Assembly: GCF_900215605.1 (NCBI RefSeq)
Contig: NZ_OBEL01000001.1
Coordinates: forward strand, 992,001 to 1,056,000
Source of the DNA: Cohaesibacter gelatinilyticus
GTDB lineage: Bacteria; Pseudomonadota; Alphaproteobacteria; Rhizobiales; Cohaesibacteraceae
Reading direction: 5' to 3'
DNA length: 64,000 nucleotides
Position numbers and translations under genes: made by a program. The notes beneath the pieces were generated by a model that was given only the letters and a program-made list of their open reading frames with translations, was not told the DNA's origin and did not search any database. The first letter of the stretch is position 1, and every line of letters begins with the position of its first letter. Below are positions 34,903 to 55,500 of the stretch, in pieces.

Positions 34903-34918
34903 GCTGAGCTGATTTTGA

Positions 34919-37955: not shown

Positions 37956-38066
37956 TGGATGGTCCTGATCAATTATCTGCTCGCGGCATTGCTTGAAGCG
38001 ATCTCACAACGCCGCGAAATCAATTAGTTAGAGAGCCTGGCTGAATTATGCAGGTCGAATTTTGCT

Positions 38067-38216: not shown

Positions 38217-38228
38217 AGTTGAGTTCCT

Positions 38229-38630: not shown

Positions 38631-38907
38631 ACTCGCCTCATATGATACGCAACTTCTAAATGTTGCGAGCAAGTTGCTTTCTGCGAATTAATTTTGAATG
38701 AATTTAACTTGGAAACGCTCTATAAAGTCCAGTTTTGGTTAAGAATTGCTGAGCACGAAAGATTTTTAGAAATCAGTAAGAAAGGATGTGAAAGAGCAGC
38801 GGATAAATAGAACTTTGCTCACGCCATCATATGATGCGAATTACATCGAATGGTAGTAGAGTATCAGGGAATTCCTGAACCACATAAAGCATTCAAAGAA
38901 AGGTAAA

Positions 38908-40666: not shown

Positions 40667-40680
40667 TTTAGGATATATCT

Positions 40681-42447
40681 ATGAAACTGAACTATTTGAT
40701 TTCAGCTACAATTACTGGAATGCTCGCTATTGTCTTGTTTACAACCAGCACCGAGGCACAATCCATATTTTTTGGCATTGATGATTATGGAAGGCGAACG
40801 AACCCAATCGGCTTAAAGCTCCTAACAATGTTGATCCCGATTTGTTTAGGGTTTTGCATAGGTTGGTTTTTCTCGCCAGGAGCAAGCAGAGTCAGAGGTG
40901 CGACCCTGATTTTTAGTGCCGTTTCTATAATTTTAGTAGCAATCGCCAACGATGGGGTCTTAGGCGGAAGCTCCGCCCTGCTTGTTGCTGTCGTAGGCTT
41001 TTTTGGTGCACTTGGTTTTTGGCTTAAAAGGGGAATCTCTGCGCTTGGTGAAGCGCCAAGAACTTTTGGGTCAAGCCGTTGGGCTACTCAAGAAGATTTA
41101 GAAATACACAACATTATTGGTGATGATGGGATTAGAATAGGACAAGCCTATCACCAAGCTCCGACAGACGTGATTTCATATAAAGGTGACCGACATCTTT
41201 TAACTGTTGCCCCAACACGATCAGGTAAAGGCACAACCCAAATCATCCCGAATTTATTGAGCTATACAGGCTCTACGCTTGTGATTGATCCTAAAGGCGA
41301 AAATGCCATGATTACAACAGGGCATCGTAAGGCTATGGGCCAAGATGTTTATATTGTTGATCCGTGGGGCATTGCAAATATTGAAGGCATAGAAACGGCA
41401 CATTTTAATCCTCTTGATTGGCTCGATATTACTGATGTTGATATTACGGAAAATGCTATGTTGCTTGCTGACGCATTGGTTGTTGGTGAAAACCACGCAG
41501 ATAGTTTTTGGATCGAAGAGGCGAAAGCCTTGTTGCAGGGACTTATTCTTTATGTTGCGACTGATGAAAATGAGGCAGACCAACGCCATTTGGGTCGAGT
41601 TCGGGATTTGCTCTTGTTGGATGGCGAAGACATGCCAAAACAGTTTAAAAGAATGACCCAATCCCCTCACCATATTGTCGCCAGCACTGGCGCGCGATGC
41701 TTACAGAAAGAACCCAAACTTATTGCCAATGTCCTTGCGGCAGCGCAGGCACAAACTCATTTTCTTGATAGTGCGCGAATACGTGAAAGTCTTTCTATGT
41801 CTGACTTTAAGTTTGAGGACTTGAAGACAAAACCGATGTCAATATATTTGGTTTTACCAGCAGATCGTCTTAATGCGTTTGGTCGATGGCTGCGGTTGCT
41901 CGTGCAACAAGCCATTACAGTCAATGCTAGGAATATCGCCAAGAAGCCTGAAAAACCGATCTTGTTTATTTTGGATGAGTTCGCGGCATTAGGGCGGCTA
42001 AGTATGGTTGAGCAAGCGTATGGATTGATGGCGGGCTTCGGGCTTCAAATATGGGGTATTGTTCAGGACTTCAATCAGTTGGAGCGTATCTATGGCGGTG
42101 GTTGGCAATCTTTCGTCTCGAATTCAGGCATGATTAACTACTTCGGCTCGAGTGACAAAATGACGGCTGAGTATTTCTCGTCCATGTGTGGTGAAACAAC
42201 AGTTTGGAACTTTAGCTCCGCTGTTGCTAATGCCTTTTCTCCAAGCTCGGGGGACAAGTCGACAACAGAAACGGACAACAGATCAGCAGCACAACGTAAA
42301 CTTGCTTATCCCGATGAGTTAATGCGTATAAACACGACTAAACAGATCGTTTTTATTGAGAATATGTATCCACTTCAGGCATTTAAAACACCATGGTTTA
42401 AAGATGAAGCCCTGAAATCCAAAGGTGTTAACCTGCATGATCAATAA
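40681..42447 (+). CDS. VirD4/TraG-type coupling protein
   Basis: Type IV coupling protein of 588 residues that delivers the relaxase-DNA complex to a mating pore. N-terminal membrane helices occupy about residues 5-22, 46-64, 74-92 and 96-114. Walker A is APTRSGKGTT (177-186) and Walker B is LFILDEFAALGRL near residue 420; the TraG/VirD4 DPKGE motif (STLVIDPKGENA) is present. The element has no VirB genes, so it must use a pore from another plasmid or conjugative element. It follows the relaxase by 14 bp. Confidence 0.92.
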   Translation: MKLNYLISATITGMLAIVLFTTSTEAQSIFFGIDDYGRRTNPIGLKLLTMLIPICLGFCIGWFFSPGASRVRGATLIFSAVSIILVAIANDGVLGGSSALLVAVVGFFGALGFWLKRGISALGEAPRTFGSSRWATQEDLEIHNIIGDDGIRIGQAYHQAPTDVISYKGDRHLLTVAPTRSGKGTTQIIPNLLSYTGSTLVIDPKGENAMITTGHRKAMGQDVYIVDPWGIANIEGIETAHFNPLDWLDITDVDITENAMLLADALVVGENHADSFWIEEAKALLQGLILYVATDENEADQRHLGRVRDLLLLDGEDMPKQFKRMTQSPHHIVASTGARCLQKEPKLIANVLAAAQAQTHFLDSARIRESLSMSDFKFEDLKTKPMSIYLVLPADRLNAFGRWLRLLVQQAITVNARNIAKKPEKPILFILDEFAALGRLSMVEQAYGLMAGFGLQIWGIVQDFNQLERIYGGGWQSFVSNSGMINYFGSSDKMTAEYFSSMCGETTVWNFSSAVANAFSPSSGDKSTTETDNRSAAQRKLAYPDELMRINTTKQIVFIENMYPLQAFKTPWFKDEALKSKGVNLHDQ

Positions 42448-42456
42448 TCATTATTT

Positions 42457-42479
42457 GGTGGCGGGAAATTTCCGCCACT
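42457..42479 (+). repeat. hairpin after the coupling protein gene
   Basis: GTGGCGG / CCGCCAC, seven pairs, loop GAAATTT, just after the coupling protein stop codon. No T run follows; it may be a weak terminator or translation-control hairpin for the next gene. Confidence 0.35.
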
Positions 42480-42511
42480 ACCCATTTATGAGAACTTCAA
42501 GGATTGTTGCT

Positions 42512-43063
42512 GTGAGTGACGAGGACAAAAACAACCGTTCGAAAAATCCGTTCAACTTAAACGCCCAACCTCAAAAGAAGACAAACATTAGGGATCAAGA
42601 TAACGTAGCCAAAGAACATAGCCCTCCAAATAATGAAAGCCATCCACGCCCCAATACTGCACCGCGCGGCATGAAAGGCATAAAGACAAAAGAACAACAG
42701 CAACAAGCGTATGATGTCGAGTTTGAGTTTGATCTTCTTGTAGAAAAAAGTGACATGGAATGGCATCGCGTAATCGACGGTAACTTTGATCATTCCGAAA
42801 ATCTGAAAGGCTTTAGTTTCGAGTTGACGCTCAGCGAAGACAATAAAAGCAAAACGATTGAGGGAAGTAATATTGAACAACTTGATTTGAAGAAGGATGG
42901 TCTGATCGTTTCACGTTTTGATAAAGGCTGGAAACATAAATCCAACATGCCGAAGGCAAACAAAGCAATAGAACAACTAAAAGAGAAATTCCCCGAGCAA
43001 AAGAAGGAGTTTAAATCCTTTGCCGATATGAACCCTAATGACGATAGGGATATTGATTTATAA
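42512..43063 (+). CDS. hypothetical hydrophilic protein of the transfer region
   Basis: A 183-residue protein with no recognised domain. The first 70 residues are Asn/Lys/Pro-rich and probably disordered (KNPFNLNAQPQKK); the C-terminal half (about 75-183) looks folded, with KGFSFELTLSEDNKSKTIEGSNIEQ and a lysine-rich tail ending DDRDIDL. The GTG at 42512 is chosen because AAGGA lies eight bases upstream and the sequence turns protein-like there; an ATG at 42488 is the alternative. It follows the coupling protein in the same direction and may be a transfer accessory factor. Confidence 0.5.
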   Translation: MSDEDKNNRSKNPFNLNAQPQKKTNIRDQDNVAKEHSPPNNESHPRPNTAPRGMKGIKTKEQQQQAYDVEFEFDLLVEKSDMEWHRVIDGNFDHSENLKGFSFELTLSEDNKSKTIEGSNIEQLDLKKDGLIVSRFDKGWKHKSNMPKANKAIEQLKEKFPEQKKEFKSFADMNPNDDRDIDL

Positions 43064-43107
43064 GATAATTTTGTGGAAATGATAGTCGATATTTGTTATT
43101 ATTTAGA

Positions 43108-43407
43108 ATGGATTACTTAGATAAACACTTATTTCCCGAACACGAACCTGTTGGTCGAACAGTCACCAATTGTCTCGGGTCACGAGAGATCGTTGTTCTC
43201 CCAAAAGGCTATTGGGATTATTTAGATTTCCTAGCAAACCAAGGGCTTGATGTGCGTAAATGGGTCAAAAAAGTTGACTCCAAACGCCCTAAAGATAAAT
43301 CGTTCGGCGAATTTTTGATGGAACGCATTTGGATAGACGAATGCGAGCGTTATCGTCGTGGTGATCCATGCCCTCCGTCGTCTCCTCCTGAAGGTTATTG
43401 TGAGTAG
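43108..43407 (+). CDS. small hypothetical protein
   Basis: A 99-residue protein (MDYLDKHLFPEHEPVGRTVT...) with a central stretch REIVVLPKGYWDYLDFLANQGLDVRKWVKK resembling the strand-helix-helix layout of ribbon-helix-helix DNA-binding proteins, followed by FGEFLMERIWIDECER. The match is weak and no family is claimed. No clear ribosome-binding site precedes the ATG at 43108. It is convergent with the next gene, eight bases away. Confidence 0.45.
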   Translation: MDYLDKHLFPEHEPVGRTVTNCLGSREIVVLPKGYWDYLDFLANQGLDVRKWVKKVDSKRPKDKSFGEFLMERIWIDECERYRRGDPCPPSSPPEGYCE

Positions 43408-43414
43408 ACACCTC

Positions 43415-43846
43415 TCACCACAATCCAAACAAATCTCCTTGCTGGTTGAGAAGTTCATCAATAAGGATCAGATGGGCAAAGCCATTGACCAGATGATTAT
43501 GTTTGAGGCTCATTGCTGTGTGGATGTCATCCGAGCAAACAGGAGTTTCAGGCGTTCCGCGCTGTTTGCGATAGCGATGCAATGTCAAAGCCATCCGCCG
43601 ATAGAAGCGTAAATCCTTTTTCAGATCAGCTTCGAACTTCTCTCTAAACTGTCTCAATGTGGCAGATCGCTGTGGCTCAGCTTTCCTGTCTGCTGCATGA
43701 ATGTCATCGCGTGCATAGCCTTGATAGCCGCTTTGACATGTTGCGTCTCTGATCTGCTTGGGAGTGAGAACTTTCCCACCCAAAAGATAATACCAAGAAT
43801 GCCCCGCGCTGTATCCGCCATGCGTGTGAGGGTTTGAGTATGTCAT
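43415..43846 (-). CDS. hypothetical protein of the mobile element
   Basis: A 143-residue protein, rich in His, Tyr and Arg, with a short glycine/histidine N-terminus (SNPHTHGGYSAGHSWYYLLGG) and a helical middle (LRQFREKFEADLKKDLRFYRRMALTLHRYRKQ). No family recognised. It lies 13 bp downstream of ardA in the same direction and is probably co-transcribed with it. Role unknown. Confidence 0.5.
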   Translation of the reverse strand: MTYSNPHTHGGYSAGHSWYYLLGGKVLTPKQIRDATCQSGYQGYARDDIHAADRKAEPQRSATLRQFREKFEADLKKDLRFYRRMALTLHRYRKQRGTPETPVCSDDIHTAMSLKHNHLVNGFAHLILIDELLNQQGDLFGLW

Positions 43847-43859
43847 GGTTCACCCTCCC

Positions 43860-44369
43860 TTACGCCATGCGATAAACGCAGGTTTCACCTGTGATGGTGG
43901 TTTCGGCATAATCATGCCCCAGATCACGGGCAATCGCGTCATAATCAAGATAGAATGCCAACCGCTCGGGAATGTCTCCGAATAAACCGTCTTCAATGAA
44001 GTGACGAGCAAGATCGTTTAGATCCATGCCTGCATAAAGATCAATATCCAGATCGTCTGGATCATCGCTTTCCAGATCAAAGCTATAGCCACATTCGCCA
44101 ACGGCAATCACAATATCGGTCTTGTTCCAATCTTCCCATTTATCCAGCTTTTCCATGAAGGGCAGTATCGTTGCCTGACTGATGCAAAGTGCCTTGAACA
44201 ATTCCGCATCAATGGCATCACCATCAATGAATTGCAGCTCGAATTCTTCGACTGGATCCCCATAGCGATTGGTGATCTTGCCAATGGTTTCCTTGTAGGT
44301 CTCCGCATCACTAAAATAAAAACCTGTCGCATCGATATCGTAGGGCTGGGCGTAAAAAGTCACTGTCAT
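43860..44369 (-). CDS. ardA: ArdA-like antirestriction protein
   Basis: A 169-residue acidic DNA-mimic protein that blocks type I restriction enzymes when a mobile element enters a new host. Typical ArdA features: VTFYAQPYDIDATGFYFSDAETYKE at the N-terminus, a strongly acidic composition (WEDWNKTDIV, LESDDPDDLDIDLYAGMDLNDLA) and the ending IPERLAFYLDYDAIARDLGHDY. The ATG at 44369 follows GAAGGAGAAG and is preferred over the open frame to 44444. Typical cargo of plasmids and integrative elements. First gene of a two-gene minus-strand unit. Confidence 0.87.
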   Translation of the reverse strand: MTVTFYAQPYDIDATGFYFSDAETYKETIGKITNRYGDPVEEFELQFIDGDAIDAELFKALCISQATILPFMEKLDKWEDWNKTDIVIAVGECGYSFDLESDDPDDLDIDLYAGMDLNDLARHFIEDGLFGDIPERLAFYLDYDAIARDLGHDYAETTITGETCVYRMA

Positions 44370-44556
44370 TTGTCTTCTCCTTTTTGGACTTGGGTTGCGC
44401 TTACAACCCTTGCCCTCTGGCGAAGACGGAGATGGGAGGGGCAAAGCGGAATCGACTTGGGTGGTGCGGGCGCAACAAAGTGAGCCACGGCCATGTCTAT
44501 TCCGCTTTATGGGGAGAGAAGAGGCTGGTCTCTCGGCTTCCCCTTAACACAACAAA

Positions 44557-44596
44557 AAAAGAGCCCTGATTGCATTCAAGCACTCAAGGCTCCTGC
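44557..44596 (-). terminator. terminator after the small membrane protein gene
   Basis: Stem GAGCC(TTGA) / (TCAG)GGCTC with a loop of about 18 bases; on the minus strand it is followed by a run of seven T. It lies about 5 bp after the stop codon of the 44601-44990 gene. Confidence 0.65.
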
Positions 44597-44600
44597 TGAT

Positions 44601-44990
44601 TTATTCCTTAGCAAGCTGTGGAGCGGGGGGCTTGCGTGATGCAATAATCAACCCGCCACCAACCAATAAGAAAAACGCACCGACATAAGTAAAGATCGCC
44701 GAGTAGCCGCCAATGGGGCAAGATCGCGAACCAAACCGCGATACCAAGCAAGTGGCATGCTGCGTTTGGACCTCACGGCGTTGCATGACATAAACCCGAT
44801 AGCTTCCTGGATTGCGGCGTTTGAGTTGCACACCAAAATGCGTCTGAGGACGACTATATTGCTTGGCCCATTTCTTCCATTCCTGCTCAGAAATAATATC
44901 AGGAGCAGTCCAGTAAACAGAAATGAGTGAGAGAGCGAGGATAATCGCGCCAGCAGCAGCGATGATTTTACCAAACACTGGAATATTCAT
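44601..44990 (-). CDS. small membrane protein of unknown function
   Basis: A 129-residue protein with an N-terminal helix (about residues 8-28) and a C-terminal helix (about 97-118) around a basic extracytoplasmic loop with two cysteines (ATCLVSRFGSRSCPIGG). This is a DUF-type layout with no assigned family. It begins just inside an inverted-repeat site (44993-45007) that may be an operator. It is divergent from the resolvase-like gene. Role unknown. Confidence 0.5.
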   Translation of the reverse strand: MNIPVFGKIIAAAGAIILALSLISVYWTAPDIISEQEWKKWAKQYSRPQTHFGVQLKRRNPGSYRVYVMQRREVQTQHATCLVSRFGSRSCPIGGYSAIFTYVGAFFLLVGGGLIIASRKPPAPQLAKE

Positions 44991-44992
44991 GA

Positions 44993-45127
44993 AAAAGGGT
45001 TCCCTTTCTCAGTATAGCAAATTTGTACCCTTCCTGTTCTTGAATTTGGCAGAAAACCTTGATTCAATAAGGTCTACATTCATCCGCAAATTCACTGTCA
45101 CAGACGCTTTCAAAAGGGAACCCTTTT
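44993..45127. promoter_or_regulatory. pair of inverted repeat sites between divergent genes
   Basis: AAAAGGGTTCCCTTT at 44993-45007 and its reverse complement, AAAGGGAACCCTTTT, at 45113-45127. Each copy is itself an interrupted near-palindrome (AAAGGG..CCCTTT). They bracket about 105 bp between the membrane protein gene (minus) and the resolvase-like gene (plus), as expected for an operator pair or recombination sites. Confidence 0.55.
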
Positions 45128-45188
45128 GAGCATGCATTTGCATGGGTATGAAATTTTATAAATCGCTGTAACTGTGGGAGTTTTTGGT

Positions 45189-45662
45189 ATGGGTGCGAAG
45201 CAATCATTACAACCAAAACAGGGGCAAAAAGTTGGGTATGTTCGGGTTTCTGACGAAGATCAGAGCGAAAATCTACAAATAGACGCCCTGAAAGCGGCGG
45301 GATGCGATGTGATCTATGGTGATCACGGTGTGTCGGGCGCAATCCCTCATCGCAAGGGATTGGAGGAAATGCTCGCCAGTCTTGAAGATGGAGACACACT
45401 TGTGGTCTGGAAACTGGATAGGCTTGGGCGCTCCACCATTCACTTGCTGCAATTGCTGGATGATCTTCGCAAGCGCGGTGTTGATTTCCAAGCCATCACC
45501 CAAGGCATCGACACAACAACGGCAGTGGGGCGCATGCTCTATGGGCAACTTGCCGTATTTGCTGAATTCGAACGTGAACAAATATCCGAACGCACCAAAG
45601 CAGGCATGAAAGCCGCCAAAAAACGCGGCATCCACATCGGAAGACCGAGAAAAGCAAGCTGA
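45189..45662 (+). CDS. short serine resolvase without a helix-turn-helix
   Basis: Small serine recombinase of the resolvase/invertase type, 157 residues. The catalytic domain is complete: GYVRVSDEDQSENLQ (nucleophile Ser), KLDRLGRSTIHLLQLLDDL, and the long E-helix region FAEFEREQISERTKAGMKAAKKRG. It stops at HIGRPRKAS, where resolvases normally continue with a 40-45 residue helix-turn-helix, so the DNA-binding domain is missing. It may be a natural short form, a truncation, or rely on a partner. ATG at 45189 chosen; 45174 is an alternative. Confidence 0.85.
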   Translation: MGAKQSLQPKQGQKVGYVRVSDEDQSENLQIDALKAAGCDVIYGDHGVSGAIPHRKGLEEMLASLEDGDTLVVWKLDRLGRSTIHLLQLLDDLRKRGVDFQAITQGIDTTTAVGRMLYGQLAVFAEFEREQISERTKAGMKAAKKRGIHIGRPRKAS

Positions 45663-45932
45663 AACTGTACCTCTAATAGCGCAGTATGGACAAACTAGAT
45701 CTATGTTGTAGATGTAAAAGGAATCAATATCTGAAGATAATAGTTATTGTGAAAAAAATGGCCTTTGCAACCGTAGTGTGTCCTATGTTTTTCGGCTTTT
45801 TTGTTCTGAAACGAGGCTGTCACCATACTGATTTGTTTTAATAATTACAGCAAGTGCTCTCCTTTAAAAAAACGCGTGCATTCAATTATAAAAAATGCTT
45901 TTCTCTCGAAGTACAACTAAAAGGCGATTTCC
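45663..45932 (+). promoter_or_regulatory. A+T-rich region upstream of the SIR2-HerA pair
   Basis: About 270 bp rich in A+T with no gene. It probably holds the promoter of the SIR2-HerA operon. No operator or repeat was recognised. Confidence 0.35.
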
Positions 45933-47048
45933 GTGTCAAAAATAAATAAGTCAGAGATCTATGAAAAAAATTTGAATTTCTTGCTTGGTTCAGGTGCTTC
46001 TTTTGGCTTATTGCCAACTCTTGCTTTAGAAGTGAAACAACACGGAACTGAAGATGCCCACACCGTCGAAACTTTGGCTACCAAGTTCGCAGGAAATGAT
46101 GATTTCAAAGCACATCTTTTCTCTTGGTACGTTCGCAACGTCATTCTTCCAGCAGCTCAATACAATCCTGATTTGTCATTTTTAAATACCGATAAACAAA
46201 GCAAGGCGATTGAAAATTACCGTCAATTCGTCGAAACGGTTTTGAAGATACTCAGCAAGAAAAGCCATAAGAAGCGAGTTAATGTATTCACGACCAACTA
46301 TGACGGGATGGTTGCACATACTGCCGAGGCTCTTCTAAGGCTTGGTTCGTATGATTTTCATCTGAATGACGGGACTGACGGATTTGTTAAGCGCACTTTG
46401 AATGCACGGAACTTTGGGAGATATTTTCAAGATCACGGGGTTTTCGATCGCCATTCCAAGAGCGTTCCCCAAATAAATCTGATTGAGATGCATGGGAGCG
46501 TTTACTGGTATAAAGATGGTGAAAAAATCGAAGTATCTTATGATTTGAATCGTGCAAAAAAGCGAATTGAGGACGTTCCTCTAAGAGAGGATCATGATTT
46601 TTTTGCGATCTTATCGGATGAAACAAAGACCGACGAGGATCTCAATCCCCCATCAGGCCCAACTGGTACGGAAAATGAAGCATTTCAAAATGCGTATAAT
46701 GCTCTTCCAATTGTGAACCCAACAAAATGGAAATTCCACGAGACAGTTTTCGAGGAACATTATTACCAGATGTTGCGGCTTCTGAGCTACGAGCTAGAGA
46801 AGCCTGACACCGTATTCATCGCATTTGGGTTCTCATTCGCGGATGAGCATATCCTGAACCTAGTAAAGCGTTCGCTTTCGAACCCCTCCCTTCATATGTA
46901 CGTTTGCTGCTTTGACGACAACGAGAAGCATTCAATGGAACAAAAATTTCTTGGCTTTGCAAATGTTGAGTTGATTCGGGTAGATGGGTTCCTTGACTTT
47001 ACAGCATTCAATGATGAAGTCTTCACAACCAAGCCAACGAGTGCATAG
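45933..47048 (+). CDS. SIR2-domain defence protein
   Basis: SIR2-like effector of 371 residues, probably an NAD+ hydrolase triggered by phage infection. SIR2 landmarks: NFLLGSGASFG (residues 15-25, NAD-binding loop), VFTTNYDGMV (Asn in TTNYD, 120-124), and the HGS motif in IEMHGSVYWY (187-189). The C-terminal part contains VFIAFGFSFADEHI, the conserved SIR2_2 element. The GTG at 45933 follows AAGGCG. The next gene (HerA-like ATPase) starts two bases after its stop, giving the SIR2-HerA arrangement known from phage defence systems that deplete NAD+. Confidence 0.88.
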   Translation: MSKINKSEIYEKNLNFLLGSGASFGLLPTLALEVKQHGTEDAHTVETLATKFAGNDDFKAHLFSWYVRNVILPAAQYNPDLSFLNTDKQSKAIENYRQFVETVLKILSKKSHKKRVNVFTTNYDGMVAHTAEALLRLGSYDFHLNDGTDGFVKRTLNARNFGRYFQDHGVFDRHSKSVPQINLIEMHGSVYWYKDGEKIEVSYDLNRAKKRIEDVPLREDHDFFAILSDETKTDEDLNPPSGPTGTENEAFQNAYNALPIVNPTKWKFHETVFEEHYYQMLRLLSYELEKPDTVFIAFGFSFADEHILNLVKRSLSNPSLHMYVCCFDDNEKHSMEQKFLGFANVELIRVDGFLDFTAFNDEVFTTKPTSA

Positions 47049-47050
47049 CC

Positions 47051-48847
47051 ATGAGTATTCAAATTGGCGAAGTCGTAGCGGTAATGGGTGTCGAAGTTTC
47101 TGTCAGAGCCTTCGAGAACTCAAACCATGAGACACACTTTTTCAATGGCAAGAAGTTCAAAGGCATCTCAATCCGCGAGTTCGTATCTATTTCGCACGGC
47201 TTCCGCGAAATTGTCTGTACCGTTGAAGGTGAATACTTGGACGAGCAAAACTACGAACTTGAGGCAAGCGAGAAGTTATTTACTCGAAAGTTAAAGCTGC
47301 GGCCTATTGGGTATTTTGAGGATGACAAGTTTAAGGACGGGATCAAGTATCTACCTAAGATCGGTGATATTGCTCGACTTCTATCTGAACAACAGGTTGG
47401 CAGCATTTTTGAGAGCAAATCGACGGGCGGATATGTAATTGGCAAACTCTTGAAGGAAGACTTGCCTGTATCCCTCCCTTGGCAAAAGCTATTCAATTCG
47501 CATCTGGGTATTTTCGGTAATACAGGCAGCGGAAAGTCGAACACGTTGACGAAGCTGTTTACAGTGCTCTTCGACAACAAGCTCCAAAGTATCGGAAACA
47601 CCAGCAAGTTTGTGGTCCTCGATTTCAATGGTGAATATACAGGAGAACAAATTGTTGGAGTTGACCACAAGAAGGTTGTCCGGCTGAATACCCGCAATAC
47701 CGTAGGAGACCGATTTACGATCCGCGACGATGAGTTTTGGGACGCAGAAACACTTGGTATTCTATTTCAAGCTACGGCGAACACCCAGAAACCATTTCTG
47801 CGACGCGTCACTTCAGGTCGCAAGACATTCTTGGAGTTACCGAATAGTCTTACCCGGTTTGCACAAGCAACTTTGAGGCGCGTACTTCGCTCAACGGATC
47901 CTAGCGCTGAAGCCCTTGAACAAATCAAGGCTCTTGTTAGTAATCTTCCCAATGCTAGTGATCTAGCTGAGATAGTTGGCTCTGTTGGGTTGCGAAGCAC
48001 GGCTAACGCGCACAGTTTTCATGTTGGTGTGCCTCCGACATGGCAGTTTTTGGCTGACGAAAACGGCTATTTTGAAGAGCAATTTGAACCATTAATTGCG
48101 GCCCTTGATCTGTCTGACCTTTCTGGGTTTTCTGAATTGCAAGTCCGCGCAGGCCTGCAGATCATTCGAGATGTCCTATCCGGCTCCGCGCAATACGAAC
48201 ATATTCAACCGCTCCTGCGGAGAGTGGACGCCCTGAAAGAAGAATTTTCGAGGGTCATTTCTGTTGGAGATATTGGCGACGATATTGATAAGCTCGTGAC
48301 CGTGATTTCTCTGCGTGAGTGCAAACAGGACGTGAAGAAAATACTGCCTATTCTCATCGCAAAACACTTCTATGAGCAGCATAGACGCGCAGTCGCAAGT
48401 CCACCTACGACTACTCTGCATTTGATTGTTGATGAAGCACACAACATACTCTCCCAGCAGTCAAATCGAGAAGCTGAAAGCTGGAAAGACTATCGCCTAG
48501 AGCTGTTCGAAGAGATTATTAAAGAGGGTCGGAAGTTTGGTGTATTCCTTACGCTTGCAAGTCAAAGACCTGCAGATATTTCACCAACCGTGGTCTCGCA
48601 ATTGCACAACTATTTCATTCATCGTCTTGTGAATGACAGAGACCTTGCGCTTTTGGAAAACACGATTTCGACACTAGACAGTCTTTCTCGCGGACAGATA
48701 CCAACGCTGCCTCAAGGGGCTTGTGTGGTCACAGGAACCAGTTTTGATATTCCAATGCTTATGCAGGTCGATAAGCTTCCTGCAGAACGTGAACCCGATA
48801 GTAGCGATGTAGACCTGAGCGATCTATGGGGGGATGGAACTGACTGA
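47051..48847 (+). CDS. HerA-like ATPase (DUF87) of SIR2-HerA
   Basis: FtsK/HerA-family hexameric ATPase of 598 residues. An N-terminal HAS-barrel-like beta domain (residues 1-130) precedes Walker A IFGNTGSGKSNT (155-165). Walker B is LHLIVDEAHNIL (DEAH 461-464), followed by the HerA arginine/sensor region FLTLASQRPADISPTVVSQLHNYFIHRLVND. It forms an operon with the SIR2 gene (two-base gap). In SIR2-HerA systems the ATPase ring assembles with SIR2 into a large complex; the same is inferred here. Confidence 0.88.
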   Translation: MSIQIGEVVAVMGVEVSVRAFENSNHETHFFNGKKFKGISIREFVSISHGFREIVCTVEGEYLDEQNYELEASEKLFTRKLKLRPIGYFEDDKFKDGIKYLPKIGDIARLLSEQQVGSIFESKSTGGYVIGKLLKEDLPVSLPWQKLFNSHLGIFGNTGSGKSNTLTKLFTVLFDNKLQSIGNTSKFVVLDFNGEYTGEQIVGVDHKKVVRLNTRNTVGDRFTIRDDEFWDAETLGILFQATANTQKPFLRRVTSGRKTFLELPNSLTRFAQATLRRVLRSTDPSAEALEQIKALVSNLPNASDLAEIVGSVGLRSTANAHSFHVGVPPTWQFLADENGYFEEQFEPLIAALDLSDLSGFSELQVRAGLQIIRDVLSGSAQYEHIQPLLRRVDALKEEFSRVISVGDIGDDIDKLVTVISLRECKQDVKKILPILIAKHFYEQHRRAVASPPTTTLHLIVDEAHNILSQQSNREAESWKDYRLELFEEIIKEGRKFGVFLTLASQRPADISPTVVSQLHNYFIHRLVNDRDLALLENTISTLDSLSRGQIPTLPQGACVVTGTSFDIPMLMQVDKLPAEREPDSSDVDLSDLWGDGTD

Positions 48848-49276
48848 ATAGGCTTTGATCAGCTTAACGTGGATATGCCAATGTGCCGATGGATTGCAAA
48901 GGAAAGCTGAAACCTCTTTGCTCTCGATGAAATCGTCATGGGGGTATCGGGGGAGCAGGAACGCTCCTCTGATTGGTGCTCAAAAGACCAATCGTTTGTG
49001 CATGGTTCGGTGCAGGTGGAGAGGCATATCTCCAAGTCCTGTGAGAGATCAAACAGCGATATGTTTGAATGGATCAGATTGGGTTCAATACCCATTTCTG
49101 ATCCACAACGTGAGGGATAAAACGGGAGAGTGTAACGTCTCCCTTTTCAAGATCGTATGGTACTACCATACACATCTTGCGATCAGCGTTAGTGAGTGAG
49201 GCACGGATGAAGTAACTCCTCGGGCGGTCAAATCGACTTGAGCAATAGAAGTCCAGATGACACTTCAACTTACAAG
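48848..49276. other. 430-bp region without a supported gene
   Basis: Between the ends of herA (plus) and the GHKL-nuclease gene (minus). Open frames on both strands are short and lack start signals. A stem GGGAGA / TCTCCC with TTTT on the right (49124-49147) may be a terminator for the converging genes. No transposase or repeat could be identified. Confidence 0.35.
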
Positions 49277-51034
49277 CTATTTGAGGGTGTTAAGAAGCCA
49301 ATCGATTTCATTTCGAGCGGTGGAGATCAAGCTATTATATGAGTGGATCGAAATATTGGGATTGAGGCTGTCAGGAGATATTATGGGATCTCTTCCTTTG
49401 CCAACAACCATAATTTCAAACGCTGCTGTTGAATCAAGCTGACATGCTAGTTCGTCTACATAACGCTGAGCTTGATTGACTTCATCTCGTCCAATTATTT
49501 TACTTGGACGTTTAAACTCAATCAATAAATAGCGACCGTTAAAGCCCTGCGTCAGAAGAAGGTCTGGTCGTCTGCTGGCGTTTTTACCTGAATACGCTTT
49601 GTCACAAAACCTGCGAACAATTGTGCTTAGGGACGTATTAGAAGCCATCAGAGAATAGCGCGATCCGAATACCCATAGGTTTGAATCTAAAGCTTTGTGC
49701 ATTGTGTCTTCGAGCGTGTCAGGGTTGAATGCTAACTGGTCTAAGTAATCCAAAAACTCCGTACGGCGGCGTGCTTGAGAATGTATGTGGGACATTTCCA
49801 ATAAGCCAAATTCACTGAGAGCTTCAGCAAAATGCTGTACCTCACCATTGCTGGCTTCATTAATTTTGTCTAAGACTTCCCAATATCCGTCAAACTCCAT
49901 CGCATCCAGTGCGACATAGGCGATCACTTGAGCACGCTCATCGCTTTCTGAGTAGTACTTCATAAGAATTTTATTGAGCGCTTTTTCGGCGTATTTACGG
50001 CGATGTTCAGGAAGATTTTCAAGCCGCTTATTAATTTGTTTTTGAAGTCGAGCTTTTTGGAGGTTTAGCTGATTGCTGTGCGTTTCTTTAAGCTTGGATT
50101 TAATTTCGTTTCTCAAAAATTCGCACAGTTCTTCATAAGCTTTGCTGCTTTCATTGACGCCTCCCCAGTCTGCTGTAACCATACCTTCCGTATCGGGAAC
50201 AGAAATCTCGCCTGTTAAATTTTTGAGAAGCTTGGGCGGAATTTCTTCGTCGTTTTCCAATCCGTAAAACGAGGGTGCGCCAACAATTTTTCCGTCAACT
50301 CTTAAGCTAATTCCAGCAGTTTTAGGTTTGGATTTTGAATGCGCAATAGTGAAATGTAAGCTTACATCACCCGCATTCTTCAAGTTCTTCTGTTTTTTGA
50401 CATTATGGCCTGGTAAATCCGAAATACTCAGTAGATCACCATTAACGTGAATTTGGAAAAGCCTCTCCTGTCCATATTCCCTAAACAAAAGCTCTTTGAG
50501 TTTTTCTGCTGTTGGATAGTTTAGATTTTGGTCAAGATCCCGTAGTTCCACAAGGGATCCTGCTTCCTCGCCATTAGACGCTTCAACCTGCAAGTCTAAA
50601 GGTATTTTTTCCAGATCATTATCAGCTTCAAGAATTACTTTCTTATCAAGGTCTAATGTGCATTTGCTGCTGCCATTATTCGATATGATTTTCATTTTTG
50701 AGGCCAGTGTCAGTCCCGCAAACTTTCCAATACCTTTGCGCCCCTTAACTTTCCTTTTGAGTCTTGCAGTAATTTCACCTGATCTGCGCCGCTTATCGCT
50801 TGCAATATCTAGATAGTTCTTCTCGATTTGCTGATCACTCATTCCAACACCATCGTCCTTTACAACAATTGGAGCTGTTACAAGAGCTGACGGTACTTCA
50901 ATCCAGACATTTAGTGCGTCAGCATCCCACGCATTGTCTACGAGTTCTTTGAGTGCGGCTTCACTTGAGCGATACGTTTCACCCAAGAGACGTGTCAAAC
51001 GTGGATTGACTAGGAAATGAGCAGTTTTTTTCAT
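49277..51034 (-). CDS. GHKL ATPase fused to a Shedu-like PD-(D/E)XK nuclease
   Basis: A 585-residue two-domain protein. The N-terminal HSP90/MutL/MORC-type GHKL ATPase has the N-box KELVDNAWDADA (Glu 30, Asp 33, Asn 34), the DDGVGM box (60-65) and the KGRKGIGKFAGL lid (98-108). A helical transducer-like middle follows (305-430). The C-terminal 130 residues look like a DUF4263/Shedu nuclease: RRPDLLL (Asp 491), YLLIEFKRPS (Glu 506, Lys 508) and QAQRYVDEL (Gln 522). It probably cuts nucleic acid under control of ATP-driven dimerisation. It is divergent from a metallopeptidase gene. Start taken at the ATG at 51034. The domain calls are by motif; the pairing is the odd feature. Confidence 0.75.
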   Translation of the reverse strand: MKKTAHFLVNPRLTRLLGETYRSSEAALKELVDNAWDADALNVWIEVPSALVTAPIVVKDDGVGMSDQQIEKNYLDIASDKRRRSGEITARLKRKVKGRKGIGKFAGLTLASKMKIISNNGSSKCTLDLDKKVILEADNDLEKIPLDLQVEASNGEEAGSLVELRDLDQNLNYPTAEKLKELLFREYGQERLFQIHVNGDLLSISDLPGHNVKKQKNLKNAGDVSLHFTIAHSKSKPKTAGISLRVDGKIVGAPSFYGLENDEEIPPKLLKNLTGEISVPDTEGMVTADWGGVNESSKAYEELCEFLRNEIKSKLKETHSNQLNLQKARLQKQINKRLENLPEHRRKYAEKALNKILMKYYSESDERAQVIAYVALDAMEFDGYWEVLDKINEASNGEVQHFAEALSEFGLLEMSHIHSQARRRTEFLDYLDQLAFNPDTLEDTMHKALDSNLWVFGSRYSLMASNTSLSTIVRRFCDKAYSGKNASRRPDLLLTQGFNGRYLLIEFKRPSKIIGRDEVNQAQRYVDELACQLDSTAAFEIMVVGKGRDPIISPDSLNPNISIHSYNSLISTARNEIDWLLNTLK

Positions 51035-51109
51035 ACGCAAAAGAGTATCATAGGTTGAAATTGAATCAACTTAAACCACTGCGAAAAACTTGTGAAATTT
51101 GAGATATTA

Positions 51110-52024
51110 ATGGATCTTCAGAATATCAAATTTGATCTTGAGTACATTAAAATTGATTGGGTCTCTAGGCAGGGAAACTCTCACGTTTTTGAAGACGTGT
51201 ATGGGAACTTACATGTCGAAATATGCTCAAGTATTTTTGAAAGAGCTATCCTCCTTTCACGTTCCTTGGCACTGTGCCCGCGCGATAAAAATACAAAGTC
51301 AAATTTTAATGGGTTTGACGTCAGGGCGTGTCTCGACTGGGTCATCCTTCACGAGCTTCAACATTGGAAACTGGGGCATTTTGAGTTGTTGAATGGTGTT
51401 CCAACATTGCATTTGATATCTCGTTCTAAGCGCAGCTCCAATCCGATCAATAGCATGCCTAAAGAGCTATGGCACAAGGTCGAACCGTGCCTTGAATTAC
51501 AAGCTGATCACGATGCGATTGACTTCATGTTGGATAGATATTCGACTGATGGCTGGCAGGGAATCCGCACTAAAGCCACTAGCATTGCGGCAGCAATGGT
51601 CTTGATTGAGAAAATTGATACAGAGAATGGGATCAAGCACTCAACCCATCCCAAAGCAGCAACGCGGATTTTTCAACTTCTGGGCCATCTAACGGAAATG
51701 TGGTCAATCCCCGCCCATATCATTGCACGAAATCGCAACTTAAAAGAGGTTTCAGAAGGTGATCTGCCTTCTAAAGAGGAACAACAAGCATTCGGCAAAG
51801 AAGTGATCCTGCCTGCATTTTGGGATGCAGTTGCTCTAGCAGAAATTGCGGATGCCAAAACCATTGTCGCTGATTTAGGCTCACCAGAAGATTTCTTTGC
51901 TGATATCTCATGCGCAAAACTTGGGCGATTGACAGATCTTCAAACGACTGGTGCGAAAGAATGGGCAGATTTAAAAAATACAAATGCAGCCATTCTCAAT
52001 CTTCTTGATTACTCTTCATTCTGA
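51110..52024 (+). CDS. putative zinc metallopeptidase (HExxH)
   Basis: A 304-residue protein with a gluzincin-type active site: ILHELQHWKLGH (HExxH at 81-85) and a downstream CLELQADHDAIDF whose ELQAD (Glu 129, Asp 133) would supply the third zinc ligand, as in M48-like enzymes. No signal peptide or membrane helix, so it acts in the cytoplasm. It is divergent from the GHKL-nuclease gene (75 bp apart) and overlaps the convergent HEPN-like gene by 16 bp. In defence systems such peptidases often activate or remove a partner protein. The ATG at 51110 is preferred; a GTG at 51092 is possible. Confidence 0.65.
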   Translation: MDLQNIKFDLEYIKIDWVSRQGNSHVFEDVYGNLHVEICSSIFERAILLSRSLALCPRDKNTKSNFNGFDVRACLDWVILHELQHWKLGHFELLNGVPTLHLISRSKRSSNPINSMPKELWHKVEPCLELQADHDAIDFMLDRYSTDGWQGIRTKATSIAAAMVLIEKIDTENGIKHSTHPKAATRIFQLLGHLTEMWSIPAHIIARNRNLKEVSEGDLPSKEEQQAFGKEVILPAFWDAVALAEIADAKTIVADLGSPEDFFADISCAKLGRLTDLQTTGAKEWADLKNTNAAILNLLDYSSF

Positions 52025-52557
52025 GAATTTTGCATCTTGTTTACTTGGGCGCGACAATTGATGAATAGAGATTCTGTCAGCTCTTTGGTGATATCAAGCT
52101 GATTTAATGCGTCATTAGGGCCGAGTAATAATGCTCCGTCTTTGTGACTGACAAAATTACGAAGTTGCCGAGATGCATTCCAGCGCCTTGCTTCATCGTC
52201 ATTAATCAAACCCTCTTCATGCGCCCACGTTTGCAGATCAGCATATCTTTTCTTGAGCAGGGATTGGGGTGGTTTTGCTTCCTTTATGGCTTCTCTGAAT
52301 GCACTCTCTCCAAATCTAAAAAGCTCTTCTTTGCCAAGAGTAAACAACGGGTAGTGATAGCATCCATAGACCATGCAAGCCTGAGCGCGCTCAAACATTT
52401 CTTGTAGGAATGGCGGGAGGTTAATATCGATTGAAACTGCTAAAATCAACTTGATCCAATCATTGGTTGAGTGTGTGCCGCCACCAAGACCGTTTATATT
52501 CCAAGCATCTAGGCGTGTATCTCGATCAAGGTGGTTTTCTAATGTAAGTTTTGTCAA
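52009..52557 (-). CDS. HEPN-like protein with an RNFVSH motif
   Basis: A 182-residue, mostly helical protein. Residues 125-140 read RRWNASRQLRNFVSHKD, containing R-N-F-V-S-H (Rx4H, Arg 133, His 138), the catalytic signature of HEPN RNases and of the helix-pair proteins used in abortive infection and toxin-antitoxin modules. The middle (MFERAQACMVYGCYHYPLFTLG) is helical. Convergent with the metallopeptidase gene, overlapping by 16 bp. The start is a TTG at 52557, uncertain. HEPN is inferred from the motif only; some RNxxxH proteins of this kind are not RNases. Confidence 0.5.
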   Translation of the reverse strand: MTKLTLENHLDRDTRLDAWNINGLGGGTHSTNDWIKLILAVSIDINLPPFLQEMFERAQACMVYGCYHYPLFTLGKEELFRFGESAFREAIKEAKPPQSLLKKRYADLQTWAHEEGLINDDEARRWNASRQLRNFVSHKDGALLLGPNDALNQLDITKELTESLFINCRAQVNKMQNSQNEE

Positions 52558-52620
52558 AACGTGGTCATTTCTAATTCAATTGTCCTAATTAGGATCTCAG
52601 ATTCGCTTGTAAAATTGATA

Positions 52621-53352
52621 TCAAGTAACAAACTTAACTTGTGTCACGTGTATTGCTACGACTCTTTCGCATGATGGGGGTAGGTCTTGTGTCGGGAGCC
52701 TTGAGCAATCATCTGCAATGCAAATGATGAATTGATGGTGTCCCGCATCCTCTGTTTCCGATAATACTTCTGGCCGCCCTGTCTCATCAATGGGAAGAAA
52801 CTGCTCTCCCAAATTGATCTTGATGCTTGGTTCATCATTCAGACCAAGAGGCAGAGGATGGGTTTTGCCTTTGTATCGCTGGAAAGCCACAGCATAGCCA
52901 TCGATATCACTGTCGAGGTGAAAACAGAATTCTTCTCCTAACCTCAGCGTTTCTTCTGGCTTTGGTTGCCGTCTCGGTCTTTGTACGAGGTTCATGGATT
53001 TGTCAAAACGAGCAATTCGCAATGTACCTTGAATCGCATAATCTTTCAGATAATCACCCCATGCATCTGTATGCTGCCACGTAAAGAGAGACGGTGCGAT
53101 TGTGCTGGCATTAGCAGCGTGATTTTCGCTTATCCAAGCATGAATAAGCTTGGCATATGAACGCCGAATTTTCCCACGCCGAAAGGTCGAAATATAATCC
53201 GTTCCCATGAGAACTTTGCGACCAAGCGCAGCGTCCATGATCTCTTCAACGCTTGTATCACAAGCATCTGCGACTGCTCTGGTTGCGATATAGAGTATCT
53301 TTCTTTGCTCTTCGGTTGTCTGCAACCAGTCGATTTCACTGACATATGTCAT
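52621..53352 (-). CDS. hypothetical protein, possible HTH plus DUF4384-like domain
   Basis: A 243-residue protein. The N-terminal 75 residues are helical and basic (ILYIATRAVADACDTSVEEIMDAALGRKV...FRRGKIRRSYAKLIHAWISENH) and may bind nucleic acid. The middle (LRLGEEFCFHLDSDIDGYAVAFQRYKGKTHPLPLG) resembles the DUF4384 pattern seen in peptidase- or kinase-associated defence proteins, but the match is loose. It lies upstream of the HEPN-like gene in the same direction, 63 bp away, so the two may be one unit. No function is claimed. Confidence 0.45.
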   Translation of the reverse strand: MTYVSEIDWLQTTEEQRKILYIATRAVADACDTSVEEIMDAALGRKVLMGTDYISTFRRGKIRRSYAKLIHAWISENHAANASTIAPSLFTWQHTDAWGDYLKDYAIQGTLRIARFDKSMNLVQRPRRQPKPEETLRLGEEFCFHLDSDIDGYAVAFQRYKGKTHPLPLGLNDEPSIKINLGEQFLPIDETGRPEVLSETEDAGHHQFIICIADDCSRLPTQDLPPSCERVVAIHVTQVKFVT

Positions 53353-53565
53353 GGAATGTACTACCCGAATATACCCGCATTCTGCATCCTGACGGAAAGA
53401 TGGCTGACTTCTATTCTGAGGTCAAACACAGACACATTTTTTGCAAATTCCGTTTGGTGAAATGGGAATAACATCCTATAATGTTCTCTTTACGTTCTCA
53501 ATCACTGAGGCACAAAAAGGAGTATCCCCAAACAGAAAAACGCCAAGCAGCAGAAAGACAAAGCC

Positions 53566-53847
53566 ATGACCTTAGACCCAACCAAACCACCTTCACTGAC
53601 CATTGATTGGGATACCTATGGCGAATTGCTGGAGAATAGTGATTTGAGCGATGAACAGAAACATGAGTTCATTCAAACGCTTTGGTCGATTGTCGTGAGT
53701 TTTGTTGATCTGGGGTTTGGAACGCACCCTCTGCAACAGCTTGAGGGGAAAGAAATCTCTTTTGATGCATTGAATCCCGACGATGTGATAAGCTTATCGG
53801 ACAGCACACCCAATTTGAAAACTGAACAGGACACAACTTCGCAATAA
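53566..53847 (+). CDS. small acidic hypothetical protein upstream of the recombinase
   Basis: A 93-residue acidic protein (MTLDPTKPPSLTIDWDTYGELL...). Helical centre SDEQKHEFIQTLWSIVVSFVDLGFGTHPLQQLEG. No recognised domain, but similar small proteins often precede large serine recombinases on alphaproteobacterial islands. Its stop is 30 bp before the recombinase start, so both are likely on one transcript. A recombination directionality factor is one possibility; nothing in the sequence proves it. Confidence 0.55.
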   Translation: MTLDPTKPPSLTIDWDTYGELLENSDLSDEQKHEFIQTLWSIVVSFVDLGFGTHPLQQLEGKEISFDALNPDDVISLSDSTPNLKTEQDTTSQ

Positions 53848-53877
53848 TTGCGATTAACGGAGAAGGAGTCTTTGACA

Positions 53878-55500
53878 ATGCCACAAGAAAAACAAAAACA
53901 AGCCGTCATTTATTGTCGGATTTCAAGCACCGCGCAATTGAAAAAGGGGGACGGCCTTGCCTCGCAAGAATCGCGTTGCCGTGAATATGCGCGATATAAG
54001 AATTATGATGTCCTGGAAACCTTTCATGACAATAAATCTGGCGGGGATATGGATCGCCCTGCGATGAAAGCACTTTTGGAATTTCTCTCCAAACAAGATG
54101 ACACTTGCGTGGTTGTGATCGATGATATTAATCGTTTTGCCCGTGATATTGTCGGGCATTGGCAATTACGGGCAATGCTCGCCGAAGCGGGCGGCAAGCT
54201 TGAAAGCCCGTCCATTGAGTTTGGCGAGGACTCTGATTCCATTCTTGTTGAGAACTTGCTGGCTTCTGTGTCTCAACACCAACGCCAGAAGAATGGCGAG
54301 CAAACGAAGAACCGTATGCGCGGTCGAGCCTTGAATGGCTATTGGCCTTTCCGTTCAACACTTGGCTACAAGTTTGAGCGGGTTTCTGGTCATGGGAATA
54401 TATTGGTTCGGGATGAACCGATTGCATCGATCATCCAAGAAGCCTTGGAAGGATTTGCAACGGGTCGGTTTGATACTCAAAGTGAGGTCAAGCGTTTCTT
54501 GGAATCCCAACCAGCCTTTCCAAAAGACAAGCCAGACGGTACTCTTCGTTTTGAAACCATCATCCGCCTGATGAACCGCATTATCTATACGGGGCATATC
54601 GAAGTTCCCCAATGGGATGTATCCTTGCGCAAAGGGCATCACGAGGCGATTATCTCACTTGAGACATATGAACTGATCCAGCAACGGATCAAAGAAGGCT
54701 CACGCGCACCAGCCCGCAAAGATATCAGTACTGACTTTCCCTTGCGTGGTTTTGTTTGCTGTGATGATTGCGGCACTGCATTGACTGCGTGCTGGTCAAC
54801 CAGCAAATCGGGCAAGAAACATCCGTATTACCTGTGCCACTCAAAAGGCTGTCCAAGCTATCGCAAATCTATTCGCCGCGATGTGTTGGAAGGGGAGTTC
54901 TCGACCTTATTGCAAGATCTCAAGCCGTCTGAGAGCATGTTTATTTTTGTTAAGCGGATGTTCCAAGATGCGTGGTCTCAACGCCTACGGCAATCTGAGG
55001 CTAATCTAGAGCATATTCGCAAAGAGCACCGCCAGATCGAATCTAAGATCGAAGGGTTATTGGATCGGATTGTTGAAACCAATAATACATCGATCATTGC
55101 AGCGTATGAGAAACGCATTGCAGAAATGGATCGGCAGAAGCATATTCTGGCTGAAAAGATGGAAAATCAGGCAAAGCCAAAGCACACTATTGAGGAGATG
55201 TTCGAACACGCCTTTGCATTCCTGTCAAACCCTTGGAAACTCTGGGAAAGTGGAAATCTAATCATGCAAAAAATCGTGCTGAGATTAGCTTTTGCAGAGA
55301 GAATTTCTTACTCGCGAAGCGAAGGACTTCGAACACCAAAAACCACCTTGCCATTCAAGGTGTTAGGGTTGATTTGCGATGATGGGAAGGAAATGGCGGA
55401 GAGGAAGGGATTCGAACCCTCGAGACGGTTCGACACCGCCTACTCCCTTAGCAGGGGAGCGCCTTCAGCCACTCGGCCACCTCTCCGCAGACCGGTTTAA
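53878..55500 (+). CDS. large serine recombinase (integrase) reading into tRNA-Ser
   Basis: Site-specific integrase of 540 residues. N-terminal resolvase domain with nucleophile in AVIYCRISSTAQ (residues 9-20) and VVVIDDINRFARDI; a Recombinase domain (about 160-280) with GYWPFRSTLGYKFERV; a zinc ribbon CCDDCGTALTACW...YLCHSKGC (residues 290-320); and a coiled-coil region (about 375-435). The ATG at 53878 follows AGAAGGAG. After codon 505 the frame crosses the attachment core and runs antisense through tRNA-Ser, giving a 35-residue tail (MAERKGFEPSRRF...). In the excised circle that tail would be replaced by the frame at 38908-39015. It should catalyse integration and, with a directionality factor, excision. 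Confidence 0.92.
   Translation: MPQEKQKQAVIYCRISSTAQLKKGDGLASQESRCREYARYKNYDVLETFHDNKSGGDMDRPAMKALLEFLSKQDDTCVVVIDDINRFARDIVGHWQLRAMLAEAGGKLESPSIEFGEDSDSILVENLLASVSQHQRQKNGEQTKNRMRGRALNGYWPFRSTLGYKFERVSGHGNILVRDEPIASIIQEALEGFATGRFDTQSEVKRFLESQPAFPKDKPDGTLRFETIIRLMNRIIYTGHIEVPQWDVSLRKGHHEAIISLETYELIQQRIKEGSRAPARKDISTDFPLRGFVCCDDCGTALTACWSTSKSGKKHPYYLCHSKGCPSYRKSIRRDVLEGEFSTLLQDLKPSESMFIFVKRMFQDAWSQRLRQSEANLEHIRKEHRQIESKIEGLLDRIVETNNTSIIAAYEKRIAEMDRQKHILAEKMENQAKPKHTIEEMFEHAFAFLSNPWKLWESGNLIMQKIVLRLAFAERISYSRSEGLRTPKTTLPFKVLGLICDDGKEMAERKGFEPSRRFDTAYSLSRGAPSATRPPLRRPV
55394..55400. repeat. candidate right attachment core (attR) in the tRNA 3' end
   Basis: TGGCGGA, the plus-strand image of the tRNA terminus TCCGCCA, also present at 38909-38915. 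It lies inside the serine recombinase reading frame at codon 505. Confidence 0.6.
55394..55486 (-). tRNA. tRNA-Ser(GCT)
   Basis: Starts GGAGAGGTGGCCGAGTGG, has a long variable arm typical of class II tRNA-Ser, anticodon loop CTGCTAA (anticodon GCT), T-loop TTCGAAT and ends CCTCTCC-G-CCA with CCA encoded. The 7-bp acceptor stem pairs perfectly. It is the integration site of the mobile element, whose core is its last seven bases. Confidence 0.95.

Follow-up and report, generated by a model that had tools for sequence, protein, structure and literature searches.

A putative integrative and mobilizable element with its attachment site inside its own serine recombinase gene: a proposed circle-specific switch of enzyme tail and mobilization genes in Alphaproteobacteria

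A stretch of 64,000 nucleotides from the genome of Cohaesibacter gelatinilyticus (hereafter the window) was found to contain an element of 16,485 bp (~16.5 kb, 38909-55400) bounded by copies of TGGCGGA at 38909 and 55394. Judged by its genes, this is an integrative element that encodes a relaxase and relies on a large serine recombinase for its movement; integrase and relaxase genes both lie between the attachment sites (38909-55400), as expected of integrative and mobilizable elements. The features referred to below are the following.

38908-39015, forward strand: predicted native (circle-state) recombinase tail at the left end, 35 codons plus TGA, with the family consensus (M/V/L)(A/V)......SN.LF..L..W and coding-type conservation
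38909-38915, forward strand: left core copy TGGCGGA, with the crossover predicted at GG 38913-38914 from left/right end identity in 31 pairs
38930-38938, forward strand: GTTCGAACC, putative zinc-domain motif of the attP arm, positions 16-24 from the crossover, geometry as in the accessible part of PMC3783163
39012-39392, forward strand: mobC (NikA/MobC-like; Pfam NikA-like 1.4e-5, MobC 6.9e-4), its ATG overlapping the tail stop (ATGA)
39389-40666, forward strand: relaxase (Pfam Relaxase 1.4e-13), its start (ATG 39389) overlapping the mobC stop (ATGA)
40681-42447, forward strand: VirD4/TraG-type coupling protein (Pfam T4SS-DNA_transf 1.2e-83)
53566-53847, forward strand: small ORF of 93 aa directly upstream of the recombinase, with a homologous ORF in 94/98 loci
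53878-55500, forward strand: large serine recombinase in its integrated form, 540 aa plus stop (Pfam Resolvase 4.4e-23, Zn_ribbon_recom 1e-7, Recombinase 3.9e-4)
55393-55497, forward strand: integrated-state tail, 35 codons on the antisense strand of tRNA-Ser, in the same phase at the tRNA end in 31/31 paired elements
55394-55400, forward strand: right core copy TGGCGGA (tRNA-Ser 3' end), with the crossover predicted at GG 55398-55399 from left/right end identity
55394-55486, reverse strand: tRNA-Ser(GCT), the integration target, which remains intact (ARAGORN)
55410-55418, forward strand: ATTCGAACC, tRNA T-arm, putative zinc-domain motif of attB, positions 11-19 (31 pairs)

The recombinase carries the Resolvase catalytic, Recombinase and zinc ribbon domains of large serine recombinases (Pfam), the Recombinase domain scoring exactly at the cut-off, and a predicted coiled coil, for which the basis is a pair of long helices (316-364 and 368-394) in the structure model of a relative, L117. 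Both Pfam scores of the window mobC, NikA-like and MobC, are slightly under the curated cut-off. The small ORF upstream of the recombinase contains ..LWSIVVSFVDLGFG.. and matched no NCBIfam family; the 94/98 loci with a homologous ORF were counted by profile search among loci where the recombinase start was complete and 700 nt of preceding sequence were available, and its product is a candidate recombination directionality factor or antagonist. The cargo includes a SIR2 and HerA pair (45933-48847) matching PADLOC defence models (4.7e-53 and 4.8e-173), proteins like BbrUII/HgiDII-type restriction enzymes (49277-51040; 1.9e-49, under cut-off) and like Lit (51092-52024; 1.1e-7, under cut-off), an ArdA-like antirestriction protein (43860-44444) and a small serine resolvase (45174-45662). 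A second element of the same family is present in the same genome (L229, G000:C7:215000-234875; 17.3 kb) at tRNA-Arg(CCG), and it carries tail, mobC, relaxase, coupling protein and recombinase.

The recombinase frame, starting at ATG 53878, enters the reverse strand of tRNA-Ser(GCT) and stops at 55500, so that residues 506-540 form an antisense tail. The initial annotation had described a frame that crosses the attachment core and ends in a 35-residue antisense-tRNA tail; the raw sequence agrees on both points, except that the core is crossed at codon 506 and not at codon 505. It had also proposed that joining the right end to the left end through TGGCGGA keeps the frame open into another 35-residue tail, and this too was found in the raw sequence and in 31/31 paired elements. 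When 53878-55393 is joined to 38909 onward the frame is kept and again gives 540 residues, the last 35 of which (MADLDVLGSNQLFDELTRW...) are the tail MADLDVLGSNQLFDELTRWNEVLQHHKNDLRGPCP; the sequence predicted across the joined ends (55394/38909) is GAAATGGCGGACCTAGAT. The stop codon of the restored tail (TGA 39013-39015) overlaps the mobC start (ATG 39012) as ATGA, and mobC overlaps the relaxase start in the same manner, both as the annotation had it; the coupling protein starts 14 nt past the relaxase stop. The joined sequence shows the recombinase-mobC-relaxase run that a circle would restore. Only the last 35 of the 540 residues are exchanged, and the Pfam domains finish at residue 343.

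Relatives of the recombinase were sought in a collection of 84,980 species genomes, yielding 84 confirmed relatives at 79 distinct loci. An intact tRNA gene lay near the recombinase end at 63/79 loci, on the opposite strand in all 63. At 61/79 loci (57 identified by script and four, L053, L058, L062 and L079, by hand) the recombinase ran in frame into the 3' end of the intact tRNA, and at 2/79 (L044, L078) the tRNA was intact beside the recombinase but the frame was lost. The smaller classes, which were sorted by eye, comprised recombinases running into truncated tRNA-like sequence (5/79; L013, L026, L041, L063, L086), into other sequence without native tail (6/79; L015, L016, L028, L049, L054, L082) or into the native tail (1/79; L037), loci at contig ends (2/79; L056, L071) and truncated recombinases (2/79; L074, L076). 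The targets at the 79 loci were tRNA genes for Ser, Arg, Thr, Ala, Phe, Leu and Lys, to which the end pairs of the class sample described below add Val and Tyr. Tails written by intact tRNAs ranged from 11 residues (L048) to at least 40, and the sequences support the view that the antisense tail is dictated by whichever tRNA was hit.

For the left-end tail, a profile was built from five left ends (the window, L012, L037, L058 and L074) and searched against 49 genomes representing 50 recombinase loci. Matches were obtained in 40/49 genomes at E up to 1 and in 36 at E up to 1e-4, four of the latter having supplied profile rows. Including loci from earlier steps, 52 distinct left-end tails were read; three, which carry an insertion between SN and LF, were set aside for a profile start off NTG, and redundant ones were removed, leaving 44 non-redundant tails. 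Over 33 tails L and W were invariant and S, N, L, F and L near-invariant (consensus SN.LF..L..W), although the motif is not strict, L185 and L189 being without W. Mean information at codon positions 1/2/3 was 0.85/1.19/0.34 bits over the 14 codons after SN, and over 13 codons the tails had pS 0.81 and pN 0.39, a ratio of 0.48 compared with 0.80 and 1.64 in the two shifted frames. In-frame stops within the first 23 codons were seen in 0/44 tails, against 33/44 and 37/44 in the other two frames, the first of these figures being partly built in, since searching for tails by protein profile selects for open frames. As a check independent of the profile, tblastn with the window mobC matched four loci (L012, L037, L058, L074), and the tail stood directly upstream of mobC in 4/4. 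By this pattern of sequence change the left-end tail is coding and conserved, and its presence across the family with coding-type conservation bears out the suggestion, made from the window sequence, that it is the native C-terminus of the recombinase.

The DNA around the start of the tail bears on whether the integrated tail might instead be an independent small peptide, started at the junction NTG and acting alone, for example on MobC or the recombinase, with the fusion in the circle being secondary. TGG was invariant in the 44 left ends, the invariance of TG being partly built in because TG after the first base was required for entry among the 44; TTCGAAC occupied +22 to +28, and codon-periodic conservation followed. 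The junction does provide an NTG whose first base is A in 64% of the 44 left ends, and the seven bases before it (-7 to -1) lean to A/G at 0.3-0.9 bits (n=44). That first base is host-derived, however, and CTG occurs in four left ends (L058, L106, L132, L061); no column beyond -8 exceeded 0.26 bits in the 44 non-redundant left ends, the maximum being 0.25 bits over -12 to -8, the place expected for a ribosome-binding site, and the frame of the tail is always that of the recombinase. We therefore consider an independent peptide improbable.

The tail and the recombinase also occur together. Among 387 genomes sampled from the same class, the recombinase was found in 27 (E up to 1e-60) and the tail in 28 (E up to 1e-3), with both in 23/387 compared with about 2 expected (p 2.5e-28); leaving out the window's own genome the counts were 26, 27 and 22. 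In every listed pair within 60 kb on one contig (17 cases including the window, examined by eye) the tail lay to the left and the recombinase to the right on the same strand, and two further cases (G410, G462) fit this order across the chromosome start. In a sample of 397 genomes from the phylum the tail was found in 14 (E up to 1e-4), all from the same class, the Alphaproteobacteria. Five genomes of the class sample had a tail without recombinase (G254, G212, G427, G090, G290): G254 has a broken recombinase, G212 is eroded-looking beside tRNA-Arg and G427 beside tRNA-Thr, the tail match in G090 is doubtful and that in G290 is only to the antisense tail. The recombinase occurred without the tail in G156, G173, G205 and G247.

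Thirty-one end pairs with a right-end tRNA were compiled. The first set contributed 18 and the class sample 13, the latter being 11 of the 17 tail-left cases and the two at chromosome starts; of the 17, the window had been counted with the first set and the remaining five did not enter the pairs. The tails of the 13 class-sample pairs were absent from the tail profile. Two pairs, L095/L015 and L101/L049, were left out of the counts for having no tRNA after the recombinase. Ends were joined at the tRNA's own TGG and the inferred crossover, and the junction was in phase and open for 25 to 81 residues in 31/31 pairs. With indices counted from the T of TGG (index 0), the two ends were identical at indices 0-5 in 30, 30, 31, 30, 31 and 31 of 31 pairs, where about 16/31 would be expected at indices 3 and 5 between ends of different elements; at index 6 identity fell to 16/31 compared with 13 expected. 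The crossover is placed at indices 4-5 because L100/L059 differs at index 3 and L167/L193 at indices 0-1. A crossover inside TGG, for which the index 3 difference of L100/L059 would speak, was rejected on the differences of L167/L193 at 0-1 and on the distance to the zinc-domain motif, which is 16-24 with indices 4-5. Large serine recombinases exchange strands at an identical, non-palindromic two-base crossover. Indices 4-5 were identical in 31/31 pairs, being GG in the window element and the palindromic GC in Arg, Thr and Leu targets; a palindromic GC would not be expected to dictate orientation alone, yet each of the 63 loci with a tRNA near the recombinase end has it on the opposite strand. 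In the tRNA-Val pair L167/L193 the left end reads AAGCGCACC and the right end TGGCGCACC, and the CCA end of this tRNA gene may come from the element.

In 31/31 pairs the left end repeated the T-arm motif of the tRNA, displaced outward by exactly 5 bp; motif identity was 0.90 at that shift and did not exceed 0.31 at shifts of 0-4 or 6 bp. For the Listeria LI integrase, the accessible part of the source places the zinc-domain motif at attP 16-24 and attB 11-19 (PMC3783163). The pairs show the same difference between attP and attB that is characteristic of large serine recombinases, a 5 bp shift of the zinc motif (31/31). The repetition of the T-arm sequence TTCGAAC of attB in attP, farther from the crossover by 5 bp, makes it probable that the T-arm is what the zinc domain of the recombinase recognizes and that attP imitates it. 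The T-arm-like DNA motif of attP also encodes the Ser-Asn of the tail. As read from the paired ends, integration enters the CCA end of the tRNA gene, and attP sits inside the element's own operon, within the recombinase gene (codon 506) and some 100 bp ahead of mobC. No inverted zinc motif was found by eye in the other attP arm.

TGGCGGA is itself common in the window, with 17 copies compared with 9.3 expected, a count matched or exceeded by 3/100 shuffles. The repeat alone is thus weak evidence, and it is the comparative data that carry the case. An open frame that merely happened to cross a 7-bp repeat would have to be reconciled with a conserved tail, in-phase junctions in 31/31 pairs and the 5 bp motif shift in 31/31; because the 31/31 paired elements share the same phase and an open junction, a chance layout is ruled out, and we give this explanation next to no credence.

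No empty site was recovered: the left flank (34000-38915) matched 0/24 loci, and the right flank was conserved in relatives. With the left flank unmatched, the site resembles a hot spot of stacked insertions, and it is conservation across the family that supports the left boundary. At the same tRNA-Ser in another genome of the genus, L158 (G058:C3) holds a remnant of a recombinase C-terminus and a left-end-like stretch with TTCGAACC; this locus is a case of stacked insertions at the tRNA-Ser site.

Homologues lacking a tRNA insertion had been predicted to bear the native tail. This was so for two contigs, L037 and L117, in which the native tail is in frame with the recombinase; for the six of the 79 loci that run into other sequence the prediction did not hold. 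In L037 (uncultured Kordiimonas) recombinase, native tail, mobC (ATGA) and relaxase (ATGA) follow one another on one contig, and in L117 recombinase, native tail and a following ORF (ATGA) lie near the contig end. Internal TAG stops interrupt both (two in L037, one in L117), so these contigs show that the frame is kept, and no intact native-tail enzyme was observed. The TAG falls at about codon 133 of the recombinase in L012 and L037 and at about codon 37 in L117; in L012 and L037 it is at the same glutamine codon (..LLASVS*HQRQK), by coincidence or as something selected. Degraded native-tail versions were present at L099, L109, L095, L136 and L158, L099 being on the contig of L021 as expected for stacked elements. 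A search for circular copies gave 0/72,556 plasmid records covering 80% of the recombinase with native tail. A replicating-plasmid form was rejected, as plasmid records contained no full-length one and the left-end DNA was unmatched there too. Viral contigs yielded one partial relative only (L161).

Behind the tail, 46/52 left ends had an ORF of at least 70 aa starting -40 to +60 nt from the tail stop, 29 of them via ATGA, and 6/52 had no following ORF of 70 aa. Among the 46 following ORFs, 33 matched Pfam NikA-like and 31 MobC (E up to 0.01). The relaxase came next after mobC in the window, L037 and L074, and in the circle the run would accordingly be small ORF, recombinase, native tail, mobC and then relaxase (window, L037, L074). 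Were the layout real but without any switch, with mobC-relaxase transcribed from its own or host promoters in both states and the tail exchange neutral, the tail and its stop/start coupling would hardly be expected to persist in distant relatives as they do; this we regard as very improbable.

A stronger competitor holds that coupling is the whole story: translated as a leader, the tail would tie recombinase to mobC in the circle and contribute nothing to the enzyme itself, so that the switch concerns mob expression alone. The ATGA overlap in 29/52 left ends is what such a leader would show, tRNA-written tails of 11 (L048) to at least 40 residues suggest that excision tolerates many tails, and the helix formed by the tail is undocked in the structure model. 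A pure leader, on the other hand, would not need invariant L and W with near-invariant S, N, L, F and L in 33 tails, nor synonymous sites that differ far more than amino acids (pS 0.81, pN 0.39), and the N-terminus of the ORF behind the tail shows no consensus comparable to that of the tail. On balance we think it rather unlikely that the tail serves coupling only.

The reading that we favour, and hold to be likely if by no means certain, is that the native tail and mobilization run restored in the circle and lost on integration act as a circle-specific recombinase and mobilization switch. Since the joining site lies inside the end of the recombinase gene, integration cuts off the conserved tail and the mobilization genes behind it. 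The native tail (SN.LF..L..W) would be replaced with a host-specified antisense-tRNA tail, and mobC, relaxase and coupling protein would be moved to the far end, behind host DNA. In the circle the recombinase transcript would read through the native tail into mobC and relaxase, translation would be handed over at ATGA by translational coupling, and mobilization proteins would be made mainly after excision. The recombinase with the full tail would be the circle-specific form and the integrated form would carry a neutral tail. As the integrated tail is host-written and varies from 11 to at least 40 residues, no particular one is needed for excision; as the native tail is kept by selection, it should act in the circle.

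What the native tail does there is a guess. AlphaFold2 gave it as an isolated, undocked helix (474-493 of the L117 fragment) with low confidence (pLDDT about 45-59), the fold alignment having 51 rows, three with the tail and separate tail fragments left out; this model neither supports nor excludes docking of the tail. It is possible, and we put it forward tentatively, that DNA state determines two isoforms, with the native tail setting direction or coupling the enzyme to MobC/relaxase, that integration both flips the enzyme and cuts the operon, and that T-arm mimicry in attP (the 5 bp shift in DNA that part-encodes the tail) lets the family spread to many tRNA genes.

Parts of this scheme have precedents. 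In Myxococcus phage Mx8 (and Mx9), attP is within int and integration gives the gene a new 3' end; the change was reported to alter specificity and not to inactivate the enzyme (PMC6070905, accessible part). The window element is similar in having attP inside the recombinase gene and a new C-terminus once integrated, and differs in being mobilizable where Mx8 is a phage, the accessible part of that source describing no mob operon behind the Mx8 tail. In Tn916, transfer genes are expressed from the circle (PMC11658703, accessible part), and, as orientation and junction suggest here, an outward gene at one end would read into transfer genes of the other end. Tn916, however, uses AT-rich sites and makes the link by transcription with terminators and antitermination, whereas here the recombinase reading frame itself crosses the junction with its stop overlapping mobC. 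Archaeal suicidal integrases (SSV, pTN3, pT26-2) have the recombination site inside the integrase gene, and in the portion available the review names archaea as the only organisms with recombinases that disrupt their own gene (PMC8371274). The archaeal enzymes are tyrosine recombinases, their gene being divided into an N and a C part; in the present element the catalytic part is not split off, only residues 506-540 changing. With the Listeria LI/A118 integrase the family shares the large serine recombinase type and the 5 bp attP/attB zinc-motif shift, and the family profile matched 12 solved sequences, A118 integrase among them (6dnw, E 4e-8), but the accessible part of the source gives neither a tRNA target nor a tail swap for that integrase (PMC3783163). 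Rewriting of an integrase 3' end by integration (Mx8) and transfer genes expressed from the circle (Tn916) are thus already known. In the open-licence literature, as far as accessible, we found no serine-recombinase family with attP inside a recombinase-mobC operon and no T-arm recognition shifted by 5 bp.

If the proposal is correct, the element would represent a compact device in which one recombination event rewrites the C-terminus of the enzyme and disconnects or reconnects the mobilization operon. Among the serine recombinases of bacteria it would be the counterpart of self-modifying integrases, present in 23 to 28 of 387 class genomes, and would explain why some recombinase proteins end in peptides of antisense-tRNA origin such as GFEP; a recombinase cloned from an integrated copy would bear a foreign tail. 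The family supplies natural attB/attP pairs for testing the 5 bp rule, and reading of the T-arm suggests how one family could use tRNA-Ser, Arg, Thr, Ala, Phe, Leu, Lys, Val and Tyr genes.
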